This document shows, in pieces, positions 42,386-64,000 of a DNA stretch of 64,000 bases; positions within the stretch are counted from its first letter, which is position 1; every line of letters starts with the position of its first letter. Under the pieces are notes generated by a model. It worked only from the letters and a program-made list of their open reading frames with translations. It did no database searches and was not told where the DNA came from. This DNA comes from Dactylosporangium siamense. GTDB taxonomy: Bacteria; Actinomycetota; Actinomycetes; Mycobacteriales; Micromonosporaceae. The position numbers and the translations under genes were made by a program. Where the stretch lies: positions 1 to 64,000 of the forward strand of contig NZ_BONQ01000018.1 of the NCBI RefSeq assembly GCF_016862795.1, in the 5' to 3' direction.

Positions 42386-42817
42386 ATGCCCGCCGTGGAG
42401 ACAGAGAACGAAGGGCAGCAGCGGCAATCGCGATGGTCGGACAACTGCAACATCGGTGGTTGTGACATCCCCGACTGCGACATCCCCGGCTGCGACGGAT
42501 GCGACATCCCCGGCTGTGACTGCAACTTCATGCTGGGCACGATGCTGCTCGGCACGATGGCGATCAGCACGCCCACGAAGAAGCCGCGGGCCACCGCCAG
42601 TGGGCCGGGCCGGGCCGGGATGGTGGCGATCCGCGGGTATCAGCGGTGGCTGTCGCCGCACCTGCCGACCCGCTGCCGGCAGATCCCGACCTGCAGCAAC
42701 TACGGCCTCGAGGCGGTCCGGCGGTACGGGCTGGTCGTCGGCTCCCGGCTGACCGCGGCCCGGATCCGCCGGTGCAACCCGTCGACCCCGAGGGGCACCC
42801 GCGACCTGGTCCCGTAG
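42386..42817 (+). CDS. YidD-like membrane insertion factor with Cys-rich N-terminal repeats
   Basis: A 143-residue protein. The C-terminal 65 residues are the YidD/DUF37 domain: AIRGYQRWLSPHLPTRCRQI, then PTCSNYGLEAVRRYG and RCNP, with the family's three cysteines and amphipathic helix. YidD assists YidC-dependent membrane protein insertion. Before it is a region with repeated CDIPGCD units (about 20-47: nine Cys, many Asp), which standard YidD lacks. Such a repeat could bind metal. ATG 42386 has no evident ribosome site. It is not next to rpmH/rnpA/yidC, so it may be an additional YidD paralogue. Confidence 0.82.
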   Translation: MPAVETENEGQQRQSRWSDNCNIGGCDIPDCDIPGCDGCDIPGCDCNFMLGTMLLGTMAISTPTKKPRATASGPGRAGMVAIRGYQRWLSPHLPTRCRQIPTCSNYGLEAVRRYGLVVGSRLTAARIRRCNPSTPRGTRDLVP

Positions 42818-43423: not shown

Positions 43424-44578
43424 GTGCCCGAAAACAAGGCTTCCGTCAGTGTGTTCGCCGGCCCCACCAGCTGGATCGAGTCCGACGCCGTCGACCAGTG
43501 CCACCAGGTCGCCGCGCTGGACGGCATGCTCCACGTCGCCGGCATGCCCGACCTGCACCCCGGCAAGGGCGCCCCGATCGGCGCCGCGATGGCCTCGACC
43601 GTGTTGTACCCGTTCCTCGTCGGCTCCGACATCGGCTGCGGCATCGCCGTGTTCCCGATCGGCCTCAAGCGCGCCGTCCCGGAGAAGCTGGCCGCCCGGT
43701 TCCCCGACCTCGACACTGCCCTGGATCCCGAACGGGACGCCGACGACCCCGCCTGGGCGGTGCTCGACGGCGACATCCCCGGCGGGCACACCGAAGGGCT
43801 CGGCACCGTCGGGCGGGGCAACCACTTCGTCGAACTGGCCCGGATCGGCACCGTCCTCGACGGCGCCCACGCGGACCGCCTCGGGCTCGCCGCCGGTGAT
43901 CTCGTCCTCGTCGTCCACAGCGGCTCCCGGGGGCTCGGGGAGCGGATCCTGCGGGCGCACACCGAGGTGCACGGCGCCGGCCCGGCCGCGGACCCCGCCG
44001 CGTACCTGGCCGCCCACGACGACGCCGTGCGCTGGGGTTCGCTCAACCGGCGGCTCATGGCCGCGCGGGTCGCGCACGCCCTCGGCGCCGAACCCACCGA
44101 GCCGATCGTCGACCAGTGCCACAACCTCGTCGAGGTCCGCGACGGTGTCTACCTGCACCGCAAGGGCGCCGCGCCCGGCGACGGCCAGGACGTCCTGGTC
44201 GCCGGCACCCGGGGCACCCCGTCCTACCTCGTCGCCGCCCACGCCGGGCCGGAGGCCAACCACTCGGTGGCGCACGGCGCGGGCCGCAAGATGTCGCGCG
44301 CCGACGCCCTGCGCCGGGGCAAGGCCAAGCACACCGTCGAGGAGCTGCGCCGCACCCCGGTCGGGTCGGTGGTCGTCTGCGGCGACCGCCAGCTGCTGTT
44401 CGAGGAGGCGCCGACCGCGTACAAGCGCATCGAGCAGGTGATCGGCGACCTCGTCGAGCACCGGCTGGCCACGCCGGTGGCGACCACGGTGCCCCTCGTC
44501 ACGTACAAGACCCCGGAGGCCGGTTCGGCGCCGCAACGGGACCGACCGGACCACCGGGGCCGGCGGTTCAGCAGGTGA
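43424..44578 (+). CDS. RtcB-family RNA ligase homologue
   Basis: A 384-residue RtcB-type protein starting at GTG 43424. Active-site pieces: MPDLHPGKGAPIGAA, the metal-binding VGSDIGCGIAVF (Asp and Cys), GNHFVEL, VVHSGSRGLG, RKGAAPGDGQDVLV and the guanylated-His region AHGAGRKMSRADA. It is shorter than E. coli RtcB (about 408) and lacks the insert, matching the RtcB2-like branch. Family members join 2',3'-cyclic phosphate and 5'-OH RNA ends in tRNA repair. No archease, RtcA or PrfH gene is adjacent, so the partner and RNA substrate are unknown. Confidence 0.87.
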   Translation: MPENKASVSVFAGPTSWIESDAVDQCHQVAALDGMLHVAGMPDLHPGKGAPIGAAMASTVLYPFLVGSDIGCGIAVFPIGLKRAVPEKLAARFPDLDTALDPERDADDPAWAVLDGDIPGGHTEGLGTVGRGNHFVELARIGTVLDGAHADRLGLAAGDLVLVVHSGSRGLGERILRAHTEVHGAGPAADPAAYLAAHDDAVRWGSLNRRLMAARVAHALGAEPTEPIVDQCHNLVEVRDGVYLHRKGAAPGDGQDVLVAGTRGTPSYLVAAHAGPEANHSVAHGAGRKMSRADALRRGKAKHTVEELRRTPVGSVVVCGDRQLLFEEAPTAYKRIEQVIGDLVEHRLATPVATTVPLVTYKTPEAGSAPQRDRPDHRGRRFSR

Positions 44579-45779: not shown

Positions 45780-45811
45780 ACCACGACTGTGCCACCCGCC
45801 GGCAACCTTCC

Positions 45812-45863
45812 GTGATCCGGAAGACCGTGTGCACCCAGGGGTACACACGGTCTTGCGGATCAC
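45812..45863. repeat. Recurrent 50-bp palindrome, copy C
   Basis: Arms GTGATCCGGAAGACCGTGTG and the complement with one mismatch, centre CACCCAGGGGTA. It begins 3 bases after the stop of the leftward exonuclease-TerD gene. It is a close relative of copies A and B. Confidence 0.88.
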
Positions 45864-45866
45864 GGG

Positions 45867-47909
45867 TCAGTCGTCGACGGTGACGCCGTGGAGGGTGGCG
45901 AGCTCGGCGAGGCCGTGGTCGTAGCCCTGGCCGATGGCACGCAGCCGCCAGCGGCCGTCGCGCCGGTAGACGTGGGCGAGGAGCAGGCTGCGCTCGGTGG
46001 TGGCGGCGTCGAGGGTGGCCCGCAGGCGGGTCGTGCCGTCGCCGGTGCGGGCGACGAACTCGACCGGTCCCAGGTCGCCGAACGTGTGGGTGCCGGGCAG
46101 GGCGGCGGCGATGATGATCCGGCTGACGTCGTCGGGGACGCGGTCGAGCCGGACGTCGACGAGGGCCTCGCGGCGCACGTCGAGGGTGAGCTCCACGGAC
46201 CCGTCAGCGGCGGCGGGCTGGTTGTAGAAGACGAAGTCGGCGTCGGCGCGGACCTGCTCGTCAGCGTCGGTGAGGAACGCGACGACGTCGACCTCCACGT
46301 CGGTGCCCGTCGGCCACGTGACGGAGACCGTCCAGTCGCCGACCCCCTCAGGCAGGTCGACCACCGCACCACGGGACAACACCGCGACCGGCGCCCCGGA
46401 AGCGGCGGCCGGCGTCGCACCAATGGCGGGCGGCGCGGCAGTAGGCGACGCCTCGGCAGTGGGCAGCGCTTCGGCAGTGGGCGGCGCGGCGGTGGGCGAC
46501 GCCTCGGCAGTGGGCAGCGCGGCGGTGGTGGGCGGCGCTTCGGCAGTGTTGGGCGGCGCTTCGGCAAGGGCGGGCGGCGCAGTAGCGGCAGCGGCAGCGG
46601 GCGGCTCCGGTGCGGCGGCGGGCGGTGCGGCGGCGGGCGGTGCGGCGGCGAGCGGGGCAGCGGCGGGCGGGGTGGTCGCGGGCAGAGCGAGGGCCGCGGG
46701 TTGCAGGGCCTCCGGGGCGCAGACGGGCAGGGCCAGCGCGGTGACGGTGGCCCAGCGGCGGTCCGCGGACGCGCCCGGGAGGGCGACGACGTCGGTGACC
46801 CGGGCGGTGAGGTTGACCGCGGCGATGCCTCCGAGCTCGCCGATCACGGTGCGGACCTCGGCGGCCTCGCCGTGGGTGCCGCCGAGGACGAGCAGGCACC
46901 GCCCGGTCAAAGGCCCGGTCAAAGGCCCCGTAAAAGGCCCGGTCGAAGGTGCGGCGGCGCGCTGGGACGGCACCGCCGGCCGCGCCGGCGTGGCCTCCTT
47001 CGGCGTGCCGGGTTCGACGTCGGCCAGGAGCCCGGCGAAGGTGGTCTCGTCCACGACGGGGACGGCGTACCTGGCGGCGTCGCGCAGCTTCGAGGTCGCG
47101 GCGGCCGGGTCGTTGGTGACGAGCAGGCCGGTCCGGCCGCTGACCGTGTTCATCACGTCGAGTCCCGCGTCGGTCGCGCGGGCGGCGAGCGCGTCCCGGG
47201 CGGTGGCGGTGCTGCCGGTGATGGCGACCTTCGCGCCCTGGACCAGGCGCCGGCCCGGGATCCACCGGCCCGGCCAGGCCCACGGGCAGGCGGGCCGGGG
47301 GAGGCGGGCCGGGTAGACGCGGTCGGTCTCGGCGGGGTCGCAGGCGCTGAGTGGCAGTTCGACGGCGAGGGTGTCGGCGAAGGCGAGGCTGTGCCGGAGG
47401 ATCTCGGTGAGGACCCGGGTGTCGTCCTCCGCGTCGTGCGGCCGGGCCTGGCTGACGCCCCAGTGCGCGGCGAGGGCGGCGAGGGACAGGCCCGGGGTCG
47501 GCAGGTCGAGCCGGCGGCTCAGCGCGAGGGTGCACAGCCGGGTGCTGACCGGCAGGCGGTGCACGGCCCGGTGCGCCTCCGCGGCCAGGAACCGCCAGTC
47601 GAACGCGGCGTTGTGCGCGACCAGGACCCGCCCGGCGAGCAGTTCGGCCAGGTGAGCCACCACGGTGTCGAAGCGGGGCGCGCCGGCCAGCCGCTCGCGG
47701 GTGATGCCATGGATGTGCACGGGGCCCGGGTCGCAGCCGGGGTCGACGAGGGTCGACCAGGTCCGGCCCACCGACCCGTCGGCCTCCATCTGCGCGACGG
47801 CGATCTGCAGGACCCGGTCACTTGGCGCGTGCAGGCCGGTGGTCTCCACGTCCACGACGGCGTACCGCAGCGGGTACCGCGTCGAAACCCGCGAGGGCAG
47901 CGTCTCCAT
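45867..47909 (-). CDS. DEDDh exonuclease-BRCT-TerD fusion protein
   Basis: A 680-residue protein, ATG 47909. Residues 12-175 are a DnaQ-like 3'-5' exonuclease: VVDVETTG (Asp20, Glu22), AAFDWRF (Asp104), HDAEDDT (His158 plus Asp). Residues about 222-300 form a BRCT domain (GAKVAITGSTATARDAL, GLLVTNDPAAATSKL), and about 330-400 may be a second (RCLLVLGGTHGEAAEV). A 100-residue Ala/Pro/Thr linker with repeated EASPTAAPP units follows. From about 505 the C-terminus is a TerD-type calcium-binding domain ([29 protein letters not shown]). It links DNA end processing with a stress-response module; a DNA repair role is inferred. Confidence 0.88.
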   Translation of the reverse strand: METLPSRVSTRYPLRYAVVDVETTGLHAPSDRVLQIAVAQMEADGSVGRTWSTLVDPGCDPGPVHIHGITRERLAGAPRFDTVVAHLAELLAGRVLVAHNAAFDWRFLAAEAHRAVHRLPVSTRLCTLALSRRLDLPTPGLSLAALAAHWGVSQARPHDAEDDTRVLTEILRHSLAFADTLAVELPLSACDPAETDRVYPARLPRPACPWAWPGRWIPGRRLVQGAKVAITGSTATARDALAARATDAGLDVMNTVSGRTGLLVTNDPAAATSKLRDAARYAVPVVDETTFAGLLADVEPGTPKEATPARPAVPSQRAAAPSTGPFTGPLTGPLTGRCLLVLGGTHGEAAEVRTVIGELGGIAAVNLTARVTDVVALPGASADRRWATVTALALPVCAPEALQPAALALPATTPPAAAPLAAAPPAAAPPAAAPEPPAAAAATAPPALAEAPPNTAEAPPTTAALPTAEASPTAAPPTAEALPTAEASPTAAPPAIGATPAAASGAPVAVLSRGAVVDLPEGVGDWTVSVTWPTGTDVEVDVVAFLTDADEQVRADADFVFYNQPAAADGSVELTLDVRREALVDVRLDRVPDDVSRIIIAAALPGTHTFGDLGPVEFVARTGDGTTRLRATLDAATTERSLLLAHVYRRDGRWRLRAIGQGYDHGLAELATLHGVTVDD

Positions 47910-48045
47910 CCGCGCGATTCTCGGGCCGCCGCCACGGAAACCGGCGCGCGAAACGCGGGACGCGCCGACAAAAGCCCGACACAGCCCCGACAAAGCGCCG
48001 AACGGGCACGCGGCGGGGGTGACGGCATGCGTTACGGTGCGGATC

Positions 48046-49632
48046 GTGGAGAACTCGATCGTCGCCGTCACCGTCTACCCCAGGCAGGCGCGGGTCACCC
48101 GCCGTGGCCGGACCACGCTCGAGGCCGGCGAGCAGGTCGTCGAGGTCGGGCCGCTGCCGTTGAGCATGGACGGCGACTCGATCCGGGTCAGCGGGCGGGG
48201 CGCCGCCACGGTCCTGGGCGTGGACGTGGTGCTGCGCCGGCAGGCCACGCCGTCCGACGGCACGGTGACGAAGGTGACCGAGGAGCGCCGCGGGCTCCAG
48301 GACGAGCTGGCGGAGATCGCCGACACCGAGACCGTGCTGCGCCAGCGGCAGACGTTCCTGACGACGCTCGGCGAGCGGGCCAGCGGCGCGTACGCGCGGG
48401 CCCTCGCCAGCGGCGACACGGCGCCGGACACGGTCACCGCGTTCACGGCCACGATGGGCGGCGAGCTGACGTCGGTCCTCGCCGACATCCGCGAGCTGCA
48501 GCACCGCCGCACCCGGGTCACGGAGCGCGTCGCGGCGCTGGACCGGCAGCTGCTCGACCTGTCCGGCAAGCGGGAGCCCGACGCGCGCTACGCCGTCGTC
48601 GCCCTCGCCGTGTCGGCGCCGGGCCCGGTCGAGCTGGACGTGTCGTATCAGGTGCCGGACGCGGGCTGGCGCTCCACCTATGACGTGCGGCTCACCGGTG
48701 AGACGCTGAGCCTCACCTGGTTCGGCCTGGTCGAGCAGCGCACCGGCGAGGACTGGCCGGAATGCGAGCTGGCGCTGTCGACGGCCCGCGCGTCCGGCGT
48801 CGTGGCGATCCCCGAACTGCAGCCGTGGTACCTGGACCCGCTGCTGCCCCCGCCGCCGGCTCCGCCGATGCAGTCCCTCGGCTACGGTGGCGCGCCCGGT
48901 GCCGCGATGCCGGCCGCCTCGATGGCCCCGGCGCCCCGGGCGGCGAAGCTCTCGCTGGCGCAGTTCGACGAGGCCCCGCCGGTGCAGGTGGCGCAGGCGC
49001 GGGTCGAGGAGGGCGCGGTCGCCGCGACCTACCGGCCGGCGCGGGTGGTCGCGGTCCCGGCCGACGGCACCACGTCCCGGGCCACGGTGCTGGTGCTGGA
49101 GCTGGCCACCCAGCTGGACCACGTGGCCGCGCCGGCCCGCTCGACGGACGTGCACCTGCGGGCCGTGGTGACGAACACGTCGCAGCACACGCTGCCGCCC
49201 GGGTCGGCGGCGGTGTTCCACGAGGCCGACTTCGTCAGCAGGACCACCCTGGCGACCTGGGCGCCCGGCGAGGAGCTGGAGCTGGCGCTGGGCCTGGACG
49301 ACCGGGTCCGGGTCGAGCGGGAGCTGACCCGGCGCACCGCGACGAAGGCGACGCTGGGCTCCACCCGGCGCCGCGAGGTGGAGTACCGCACCAGCGTCGG
49401 CAACTACACCGGCCGGCCGGTGCGGATCACCGTGCTCGACCAGCTGCCGGTCAGCCGCCACGACCAGATCACGGTCAAGGAGACCGTGCTGGAGCCGCAG
49501 CCGGCCGAACGCACCGACCTCGGCGTCCTGACCTGGCGTCTGGTCATCCCGGAGGGACAGACGCAGACGGTGCGGCTGGGGTACCGGGTCGAGACGGGCA
49601 AGGGCATCGAGCTGTCCGGCTGGCGGGAGTAG
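48046..49632 (+). CDS. DUF4139 / mucoidy-inhibitor-like protein
   Basis: A 528-residue protein of the MuiA/DUF4139 type. N-terminal DUF4140-like part VTVYPRQARVTRRGR...GEQVVEVGPLPLSM, a central coiled coil (TEERRGLQDELAEIADTETV), then the DUF4139 beta domain with YQVPDAGWRSTYDVRLTG, TWFGLVEQRTGEDWPECELALSTA and a C-terminal RYRVETGKG. A Pro/Ala-rich loop (PPPPAPPMQS) is inserted. No signal peptide is seen, so it is cytosolic. GTG 48046 lies 8 bases after TACGGT, consistent with leaderless transcription. It is divergent from the exonuclease-TerD gene. Role unknown. Confidence 0.82.
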   Translation: MENSIVAVTVYPRQARVTRRGRTTLEAGEQVVEVGPLPLSMDGDSIRVSGRGAATVLGVDVVLRRQATPSDGTVTKVTEERRGLQDELAEIADTETVLRQRQTFLTTLGERASGAYARALASGDTAPDTVTAFTATMGGELTSVLADIRELQHRRTRVTERVAALDRQLLDLSGKREPDARYAVVALAVSAPGPVELDVSYQVPDAGWRSTYDVRLTGETLSLTWFGLVEQRTGEDWPECELALSTARASGVVAIPELQPWYLDPLLPPPPAPPMQSLGYGGAPGAAMPAASMAPAPRAAKLSLAQFDEAPPVQVAQARVEEGAVAATYRPARVVAVPADGTTSRATVLVLELATQLDHVAAPARSTDVHLRAVVTNTSQHTLPPGSAAVFHEADFVSRTTLATWAPGEELELALGLDDRVRVERELTRRTATKATLGSTRRREVEYRTSVGNYTGRPVRITVLDQLPVSRHDQITVKETVLEPQPAERTDLGVLTWRLVIPEGQTQTVRLGYRVETGKGIELSGWRE

Positions 49633-62969: not shown

Positions 62970-63213
62970 TGGCCGGTCGGCGGCGGGCCGCGGGGCCGGT
63001 CGGCGGCGGGCGGGCCGGTCGGCCGCGGGCCGGTCGGCGGCGGGTCGCGGGGCCCGGTCGGCCGCGGGCAGGTCGCCGGCGGTCGGTCGGCTGCGGGTCG
63101 GTCGGCTGCGGGCCGGTCGGCGGCCGGCCGGTCCATAGTGGACGTTCGGGGGTGTGCGGCGTTGATCGACTCCGAGATACGGTCTCGATACGCTCACGCC
63201 GGAGGTGACCCGC
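62970..63213. repeat. GGTCGGC(T)GCGGG-type simple repeats
   Basis: About 165 bases (62970-63135) of degenerate GGTCGGCGGCGGGC units, flanked by direct repeats of GCCGGTCCATAGTGG at its two ends (about 62960 and 63125). Six-frame translations are pure PAADRP-type repeats, so it is noncoding. The remaining 80 bases lead to the TerD gene with its GGAGGTGA site. Confidence 0.7.
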
Positions 63214-64000
63214 ATGACGACCGCAGCACTCGCCCGCGGCGCGAACACCGCGATCGACGAGACGGCGGTCGAGGCCCGCGTGGCCTGGCGCGCCGGCGCG
63301 ACCGTCGACGCGTGCGCGCTGCTCGTCGGCGAGGGCGGCAAGGTGCGCGGCGACGCCGACTTCGTGTTCTACAACCAGCCGCGGGACGGGTCGGGCGCGG
63401 TGTCGTTGCGTACCGACGGATCCAACGCGGCGAACCTCGCCGTCGACCTCGCACGCGTGCCCGCGGACGTCGCCGGTGTCGTCATCGCCGGCTCGATGGA
63501 CACCGGCACGTTCGACGCGGTGCCGGGCCTCGAGGTCACCGTCCGGGGCCCGGGCGGCCGGGTCCTCGCGAGCTTCCCGGTGCGCGACGTCGAGCCGGTC
63601 ACCGCGATGGTGTTCGGCGAGTTCTACCGGCGGCAGGGGCGCTGGAAGTTCCGCGCCATCGGGCAGGGCTGGGACTCCGGGCTCGACGGCCTGGTGACGG
63701 CCTATGGCGTGACGGTCACCTCGTCGCCTTCCTTGCCTGCGGCGCCTCCCTTGCCTGCCGCGCCTCCCTTGCCTGCCGCGCCTCCCTTGCCTGCCGCGCC
63801 TCCCTTGCCTGCCACGCCTGCGTCGCCTTCCTTGCCTGCGGCGCCGTCCTCGCCCCGGCCGGACTGGTATCCGGCGCACGGAAACCCTTCCCAGTTGCGC
63901 TGGTGGAACGGCACCGAGTGGAGCGTGCAGACGGTGCCGCTCATCCACGACACGCCCACCGTCTGCGGGCGGTGCGGCGGGCCGAAGTACCGCAACCACG
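63214..64000 (+). CDS. TerD-family protein with Pro/Ala repeat linker, cut by window end
   Basis: The first 262 residues are present and the frame is still open at the window end. Residues 1-170 form a TerD domain ([57 protein letters not shown]), with the Asp-rich DADFVFYNQ calcium-binding block shared with the exonuclease-TerD fusion. A linker of PPLPAA hexapeptides follows (63720-63840), encoded by 18-bp DNA repeats. Then comes a DUF2510-like strand ([20 protein letters not shown]) and the start of a zinc ribbon (CGRCGGPKY). The start has a near-perfect GGAGGTGA. TerD proteins belong to stress and tellurite-resistance networks. Confidence 0.85.

Follow-up and report, generated by a model that had tools for sequence, protein, structure and literature searches.

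What does a protein do in which a DEDDh exonuclease, BRCT modules and a TerD domain are joined in one chain, and does such a chain tie DNA processing to a Ter-type stress system, as the initial annotation of this stretch of Dactylosporangium siamense DNA had proposed? The gene in question lies in a window of 64,000 nucleotides, by which we mean the whole stretch of DNA that was analyzed, and the reading of its domains proved right, with open reading frame, strand and ends exact (Table 1). Pfam recognizes the exonuclease (RNase_T, PF00929; residues 18-171, E = 4.4e-24, 86.3 bits against a gathering score of 24) and the TerD domain (PF02342; residues 511-672, E = 3.5e-29, 102 bits against a gathering score of 25.3). 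An AlphaFold2 model of the whole protein, built from a 17-sequence alignment, has a mean pLDDT of 76.8, with mostly confident domains and a low-scoring linker; its pTM of 0.40 means that the mutual arrangement of the domains is not fixed by the model. The exonuclease part of the model aligns with the exonucleases of DinG, PolC and DnaQ (Z 20-23), and its TerD tail with SCP2 in 9a6r (Z 25.1) and with Streptomyces coelicolor 3ibz (Z 20.2). A failure of structure prediction for the BRCT or TerD parts, which had been named as grounds for rejecting the domain reading, thus did not occur. The DEDDh catalytic set (D20, E22, D104, H158 and D163) is invariant in 30 of 30 intact proteins with the full domain series, here called long forms, and the domain together with its intact catalytic residues predicts a 3'-5' exonuclease activity for the product.

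Table 1. Coordinates of the fusion gene, its domains and associated features in the window
Feature	Position	Strand	Remarks
Exo-BRCT1-BRCT2-linker-TerD gene	45867..47909	-	680 aa, ATG at 47909; ORF reading, Pfam
DEDDh 3'-5' exonuclease domain	47325..47867	-	residues 15-195; Pfam RNase_T, fold, catalytic residues
BRCT1	47010..47246	-	residues 222-300; LigA/RFC1 class; Pfam, profile search
BRCT2	46695..46907	-	residues 335-405; divergent; recognized through fold only
Pro/Ala-rich repetitive linker	46398..46685	-	residues 409-504; pLDDT under 50
TerD domain	45876..46382	-	residues 510-678; acidic loop shortened; Pfam, fold
Hairpin	45810..45865	-	directly 3' of the stop codon; 27-nt arms, 93% complementary
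Second TerD gene	63205..63999	+	TerD-linker-DUF2510-...-HNH, 567 aa in full; runs past the window (L085:205-1905)

The number of BRCT domains had been left at one or two, and two is the most likely count, since BRCT1 is clear by profile and the model of BRCT2 matches the BRCT fold. As a single sequence, BRCT1 stays below the Pfam cutoff (residues 222-289, E = 0.0021, 18.7 bits against a gathering score of 21.3), while a profile of 11 homologues finds the BRCT domains of NAD ligase (1l7b, E = 7.4e-13) and RFC1 (2k6g, E = 4.1e-6). Judged by this family profile, BRCT1 belongs to the NAD-ligase/RFC1 sequence class; it is joined here to an exonuclease and not to a ligase or clamp loader. In BRCT domains of this class, a Thr or Ser together with a Lys holds a phosphate, and the corresponding positions are well kept among the 30 long forms: K274 is Lys in all of them, and T231 is Thr in 27 and Ser in three. 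BRCT2 escaped recognition by sequence: a profile search returned no BRCT match, only three unrelated matches up to E = 10, and hhalign gave a probability of 3.9% for its alignment with BRCT1. When its own structure model was compared with known structures, the top rows by Z were BRCT proteins (Z 10.9, rmsd 2.1, 79 residues), and the single Foldseek match to reach E = 0.001 was a BRCT domain of TopBP1. One of the five models of BRCT2 is confident (pLDDT 91.2; the others 75.8, 61.9, 60.0 and 58.2), and the domain is present in the long forms examined.

Could the chain merely be a chance read-through or an assembly join of neighboring genes? Beyond the low complexity of the linker nothing speaks for such an origin, and we give it next to no probability: the domain search across actinobacteria that had been proposed as a check recovered 30 intact long forms from several genera, all with the four domains in this order, a conservation that rules out a chance fusion. 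Pairwise distances between the exonuclease domains of these long forms parallel those between their TerD domains (r = 0.88), those of all four domains agree with r between 0.78 and 0.88, and in neither comparison did any of 999 permutations reach as high; all four have diverged in step, as a single unit. The set of 30 consists of the window's own protein, 19 from family- and class-level searches and 10 from named organisms, and it does not amount to 30 independent cases, since close relatives are among them. Left out of it were L055, whose TerD is mostly deleted, L122, whose frame is broken, the broken L029/L083 and L084, L051, which has no detectable TerD and groups with the long forms, and L124, which is cut by a contig edge.

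The distribution of the long form is patchy. Among 101 genomes searched at the level of the family, the organism's own included, an intact four-domain protein was found in the own genome and in three of the 100 others (G064, G024 and G055), one of which is among the four same-genus relatives; its presence in every relative is thereby ruled out. Broken copies were seen in G037 and, as a second copy, in G024; 26 further loci that were checked all lack BRCT2 and TerD, and the remaining genomes were judged only by a weaker exonuclease match. At the level of the class, 81 of 394 genomes gave a match to the exonuclease-BRCT1 part at E = 1e-40 or better. The domains of 49 class-level loci were examined, and 16 are long forms, one holds a TerD remnant and 32 have no TerD in frame, proportions that cannot be read as a frequency because 20 of the 49 loci were fetched by choice. 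The best 80 of a longer list of named loci include 10 intact long forms, in Streptomyces (7), Actinomadura spongiicola, a Rhodococcus and Nocardia amikacinitolerans, and one broken copy in Rhodococcus zopfii. Ten plasmid records were searched and yielded two near-full matches, one on a 1.7-Mb linear Streptomyces replicon and one in a Nocardia farcinica record. No phage record covered 80% of the query, and none of the 80 viral loci among the matches listed extends past residue 314 or holds the full form, observations that rule against a phage origin. In a tree of the exonuclease-BRCT1 part, long and short forms are intermixed, with six label changes when L051 and L055 are left out and L124, cut by the contig edge and possibly mislabeled, is counted as short; the position of the root is not fixed. 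This mixing suggests repeated loss, or repeated gain, of the BRCT2-TerD half.

We then turn to the TerD domain, which had been read as calcium binding. The fused TerD shares sequence family and fold with the TerD family (PF02342; Klebsiella pneumoniae TerD 2kxt, S. coelicolor 3ibz), from which it differs by its place behind a nuclease, by a shortened acidic loop and by its position apart from the other TerD domains of its genome. This loop, GDNxTGxGxGDDE in canonical TerDs, which we take to be part of the calcium site, has nine residues instead of 15 in 30 of 30 fused TerDs, with one to three acidic residues left, whereas 7 of the 19 other TerDs of the own genome keep the full 15. The loss of six loop residues in all 30 fused TerDs makes calcium binding doubtful and goes against the initial annotation. 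The idea of a TerD domain that senses calcium and so switches the nuclease would be in keeping with its TerD fold, close to 3ibz and SCP2, and with the acidic residues D541 and D556, which are invariant in 30 of 30 long forms; given the shortened loop and its retention at full length elsewhere in the genome, we hold this idea to be improbable. In a TerD tree, the 30 fused domains fall on one side of a branch with a support of 100/100, opposite the 19 other TerDs of the own genome, a separation to be read with the comparison set drawn from one genome, with a long-branch warning, and with one of these other TerDs, L016, placed with the fused domains. A ligand of another kind has been suggested in passing in an eLife paper, where TerD is said possibly to recognize specialized nucleotide derivatives (PMC7159879).

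Next, we consider where the gene resides. The hairpin behind it is terminator-like, with a dG of -50.3 kcal/mol and a z of -7.9, and has no U-run. It stands directly behind the stop codon and its 34-nt core is single-copy in the genome, with up to three mismatches allowed, from which we infer that the gene is probably transcribed alone. Divergent from the fusion gene is a DUF4140/DUF4139 gene of the mucoidy inhibitor MuiA type (48037-49632, +), and this adjacency was seen again in one same-genus genome only. The DUF4139 gene was found in all seven relatives searched; it has another context in three genus-mates that lack the fusion, so that no clean empty site was found. Further along the window lie a gene for an RtcB family RNA ligase (43424-44578, +; NF007153, TIGR03073) and a small open reading frame (42386-42817, +) that, by eye, is presumably YidD-like.

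The sharpest view of the genomic placement comes from genomes that carry the long form beside a shorter relative. In group g70, which we call streptomycete-like because its rows fall with named Streptomyces in the exonuclease-BRCT1 tree, 38 genomes have an exonuclease-BRCT1 match and nine have two copies. All nine two-copy genomes hold the long form; the second copy is a short form without TerD, as checked in four of them and inferred from match and frame in five. For each of these nine, we compared the 19 kb surrounding the long form with the 19 kb surrounding the second copy, calling genes by our own codon-bias heuristic. Around the short-type copy, 137 of 147 neighboring genes recur (pair fraction 0.597), against 21 of 122 around the long form (pair fraction 0.034). 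Seven long loci of named Streptomyces gave the same picture, with none of 73 neighbors recurring, versus 132 of 147 around ten named short-form loci. In these nine genomes the short paralogue keeps its neighbors and the long form mostly does not, which makes the latter look like a solitary accessory gene. Its placement is not wholly free, since three of the nine streptomycete-like long loci (G454, G139 and G476) share a block of about 5 kb next to the gene; in G454, the copy that was scanned, two dynamin-type GTPases, an SSB and a thioester-domain protein are encoded there. In all three genomes the long form and the block (L199:10518-16588 and its counterparts in L200 and L204) are divergently oriented.

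Across 14 long loci from all genera, only 11 of 174 genes have a match at another locus, one of them being the second part of the broken R. zopfii gene, and no conserved operon partner emerged: no family occurs at more than four of the 14 loci, and those that recur are generic types such as response regulators. A Pfam scan of 30 neighbors from ten long loci left six without a match and otherwise returned a mixture of regulatory, metabolic and cell-wall genes, with no TerB or TerC among the 30. In Streptomyces sp. sk2.1 (L120:9898-11492), a single case, the long form stands tail to tail with CRISPR_assoc (Cas6-type) and Cas5 genes. The short relatives have the size of the curated model NF004719/PRK06063 ('DEDDh family exonuclease', 331 positions), with which our protein shares the exonuclease and BRCT1 over residues 6-311. 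It scores 375.3 bits, below the curated equivalog value of 389, and has more than the model's length: NF004719 has no room for BRCT2, the linker and TerD, and relatives of its size keep their neighbors in streptomycetes, whereas the long form mostly does not.

Taken together, the reading we lean towards, with somewhat more confidence than doubt, is that of a single-gene, DNA-end-directed 3'-5' exonuclease, a solitary accessory protein in which TerD serves as a docking or regulatory module. BRCT1 would bring the enzyme to DNA ends with a 5' phosphate, and the exonuclease would then resect or degrade from the 3' side. DNA is the presumed substrate; DEDDh enzymes trim RNA too. BRCT2 and the tethered TerD might anchor the enzyme on a partner or make it ligand-gated, such that it would be active only under a condition sensed by TerD. 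Since the gene stands alone before its own hairpin and occurs at different genomic sites, the enzyme probably works without a dedicated operon partner. Instead of DNA ends, BRCT1 could also bind phosphopeptides, or nothing.

As to the purpose of such an enzyme, defence and stress repair appear about equally probable. In the first case, the protein would be a single-gene nuclease against phages or plasmids, whose TerD detects infection or attaches itself to a Ter complex, and whose exonuclease degrades invader DNA from free ends, a role that we regard as possible but would not bet on. Its patchy presence and variable placement, the copy on the 1.7-Mb linear Streptomyces replicon, the single locus beside cas6- and cas5-type genes and the other TerD-nuclease fusions of the genome (below) fit this role, as does the mention of a TerD-dependent anti-phage system with a McrBC-like restriction system (PMC3710099). 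The protein also matches, strongly but in part, the PADLOC candidate defence family PDC-S48, a family for which we found no paper in the literature searched (two stretches, 234.6 bits). However, the best PDC-S48 stretch covers the exonuclease alone (residues 15-180, positions 5-172 of the 411-position model, which is far shorter than our protein); a second stretch also passes, and a DEDDh exonuclease is present in both. Related exonucleases of 410-486 aa, which need not be PDC-S48, also occur in the same family of genomes; their BRCT domain follows the exonuclease at a distance of some 150-160 residues, and they lack TerD. The phage result given above speaks against a defence role too, and the other neighbors scanned are mostly metabolic, regulatory, cell-wall or unassigned genes.

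In the second case, the protein would act in DNA repair or stress, resecting ends or cleaning up when the cell faces oxidative or tellurite stress, with TerD as its tie to a Ter/calcium stress response; we rate this, like defence, as conceivable rather than probable. A BRCT1 of the ligase/RFC1 class, the conserved catalytic residues and the SSB gene in the approximately 5-kb block beside the gene in three of nine streptomycete-like genomes (content scanned in G454) would suit such a function, but the gene is absent from most relatives, which argues that the fusion is not a core repair gene. A pilot study of an Escherichia coli ter operon cuts both ways: the operon is credited there with better UVC survival, and direct DNA repair by ter genes is argued against (PMC8123226). 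We scanned the regions upstream of 31 long forms with LexA-type and RecA-NDp consensus sequences. A LexA-type box with three mismatches is present in 8 of the 31 regions against about 7% of shuffles, an excess that is weak because there are no closer boxes (none of the 31 has fewer than three mismatches or a perfect core) and because the rows are related. The RecA-NDp motif, with one occurrence in 31 against about 1% of shuffles, is not above shuffles, and SOS control of the long form is at most weakly hinted at by these upstream regions. A RecA-NDp-like promoter motif with four mismatches was seen upstream of 3 of 13 short forms (L127 to L150), compared with 0.4% of shuffles.

The fusion is not the only TerD-nuclease combination of its genome, which has 20 TerD domains in 18 proteins. 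A Pfam scan covered eleven of the 18; six others have the size of a single domain (190-194 aa), and one, on contig C83, is of 421 aa. At least four of the 18 carry a nuclease domain, namely DEDDh, HNH twice and T5orf172, a domain of the GIY-YIG type. One of the HNH proteins is encoded by the second TerD gene of the window, placed by the initial annotation at 63214; the gene is real, its start is at 63205 and it ends beyond the window. A paralogue on contig C19 (L092:4061-5626) is likewise a TerD-DUF2510-HNH protein, giving two copies in the genome, and a protein on contig C91 (L093:1746-3893, -) is a TerD-DUF4041-T5orf172 fusion. The kinship that had been drawn between the fusion and the 63205 protein holds only in outline. 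Both linkers are repetitive, with different repeat units, and the shared block of ten residues is a generic TerD signature, exact in 3 of the 20 TerD domains of the genome. While TerD and a nuclease occur in one chain in both, the TerD-DUF2510-HNH proteins have another nuclease fold, the opposite domain order and a TerD of another lineage; a special kinship of the TerD domains is not borne out, as the fused TerDs group apart in the TerD tree. The HNH type is conserved: its 22 loci, the two of the own genome among them, come from 17 of 296 class genomes, and 19 of these loci have TerD in frame, the remaining three being two contig edges and one short frame. In the DUF4041-T5orf172 family, TerD is present at just 2 of the 23 loci of the C-terminal half, the own one included. 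The acidic loop is absent from all four nuclease-linked TerDs of the genome.

Of the proposal that the fusion ties DNA processing to a Ter system, the link to DNA is thus strengthened by the other TerD-nuclease fusions and by the conservation of the catalytic residues, and linkage to a Ter operon was not seen around the long loci examined. It is tempting to go further and to speculate that actinomycetes use TerD generally as a plug-in module for effectors that cut DNA. Loop-less TerDs on unrelated nucleases (DEDDh-BRCT-BRCT, HNH and GIY-YIG) would then form single-gene effectors, all of them licensed by a common TerD signal (a Ter complex or a nucleotide-like ligand) to act on foreign or damaged DNA, and the DEDDh type would wander between genomic sites; we put this forward tentatively, as a minority view. 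In the literature searched, which did not extend to Anantharaman et al. 2012 on Ter systems, we found no description of the TerD, BRCT and exonuclease architecture, and the single paper naming both TerD and BRCT does so in unconnected places; a description may be in print.

Within the same genomes, the short and the long form contrast in their neighbors, which points to the BRCT2-TerD half as the portion associated with accessory behavior. A TerD domain permanently joined to an enzyme whose activity can be read out offers a direct handle on TerD function: should the domain gate or target the exonuclease, following the nuclease activity could lead to the ligand or partner of TerD.
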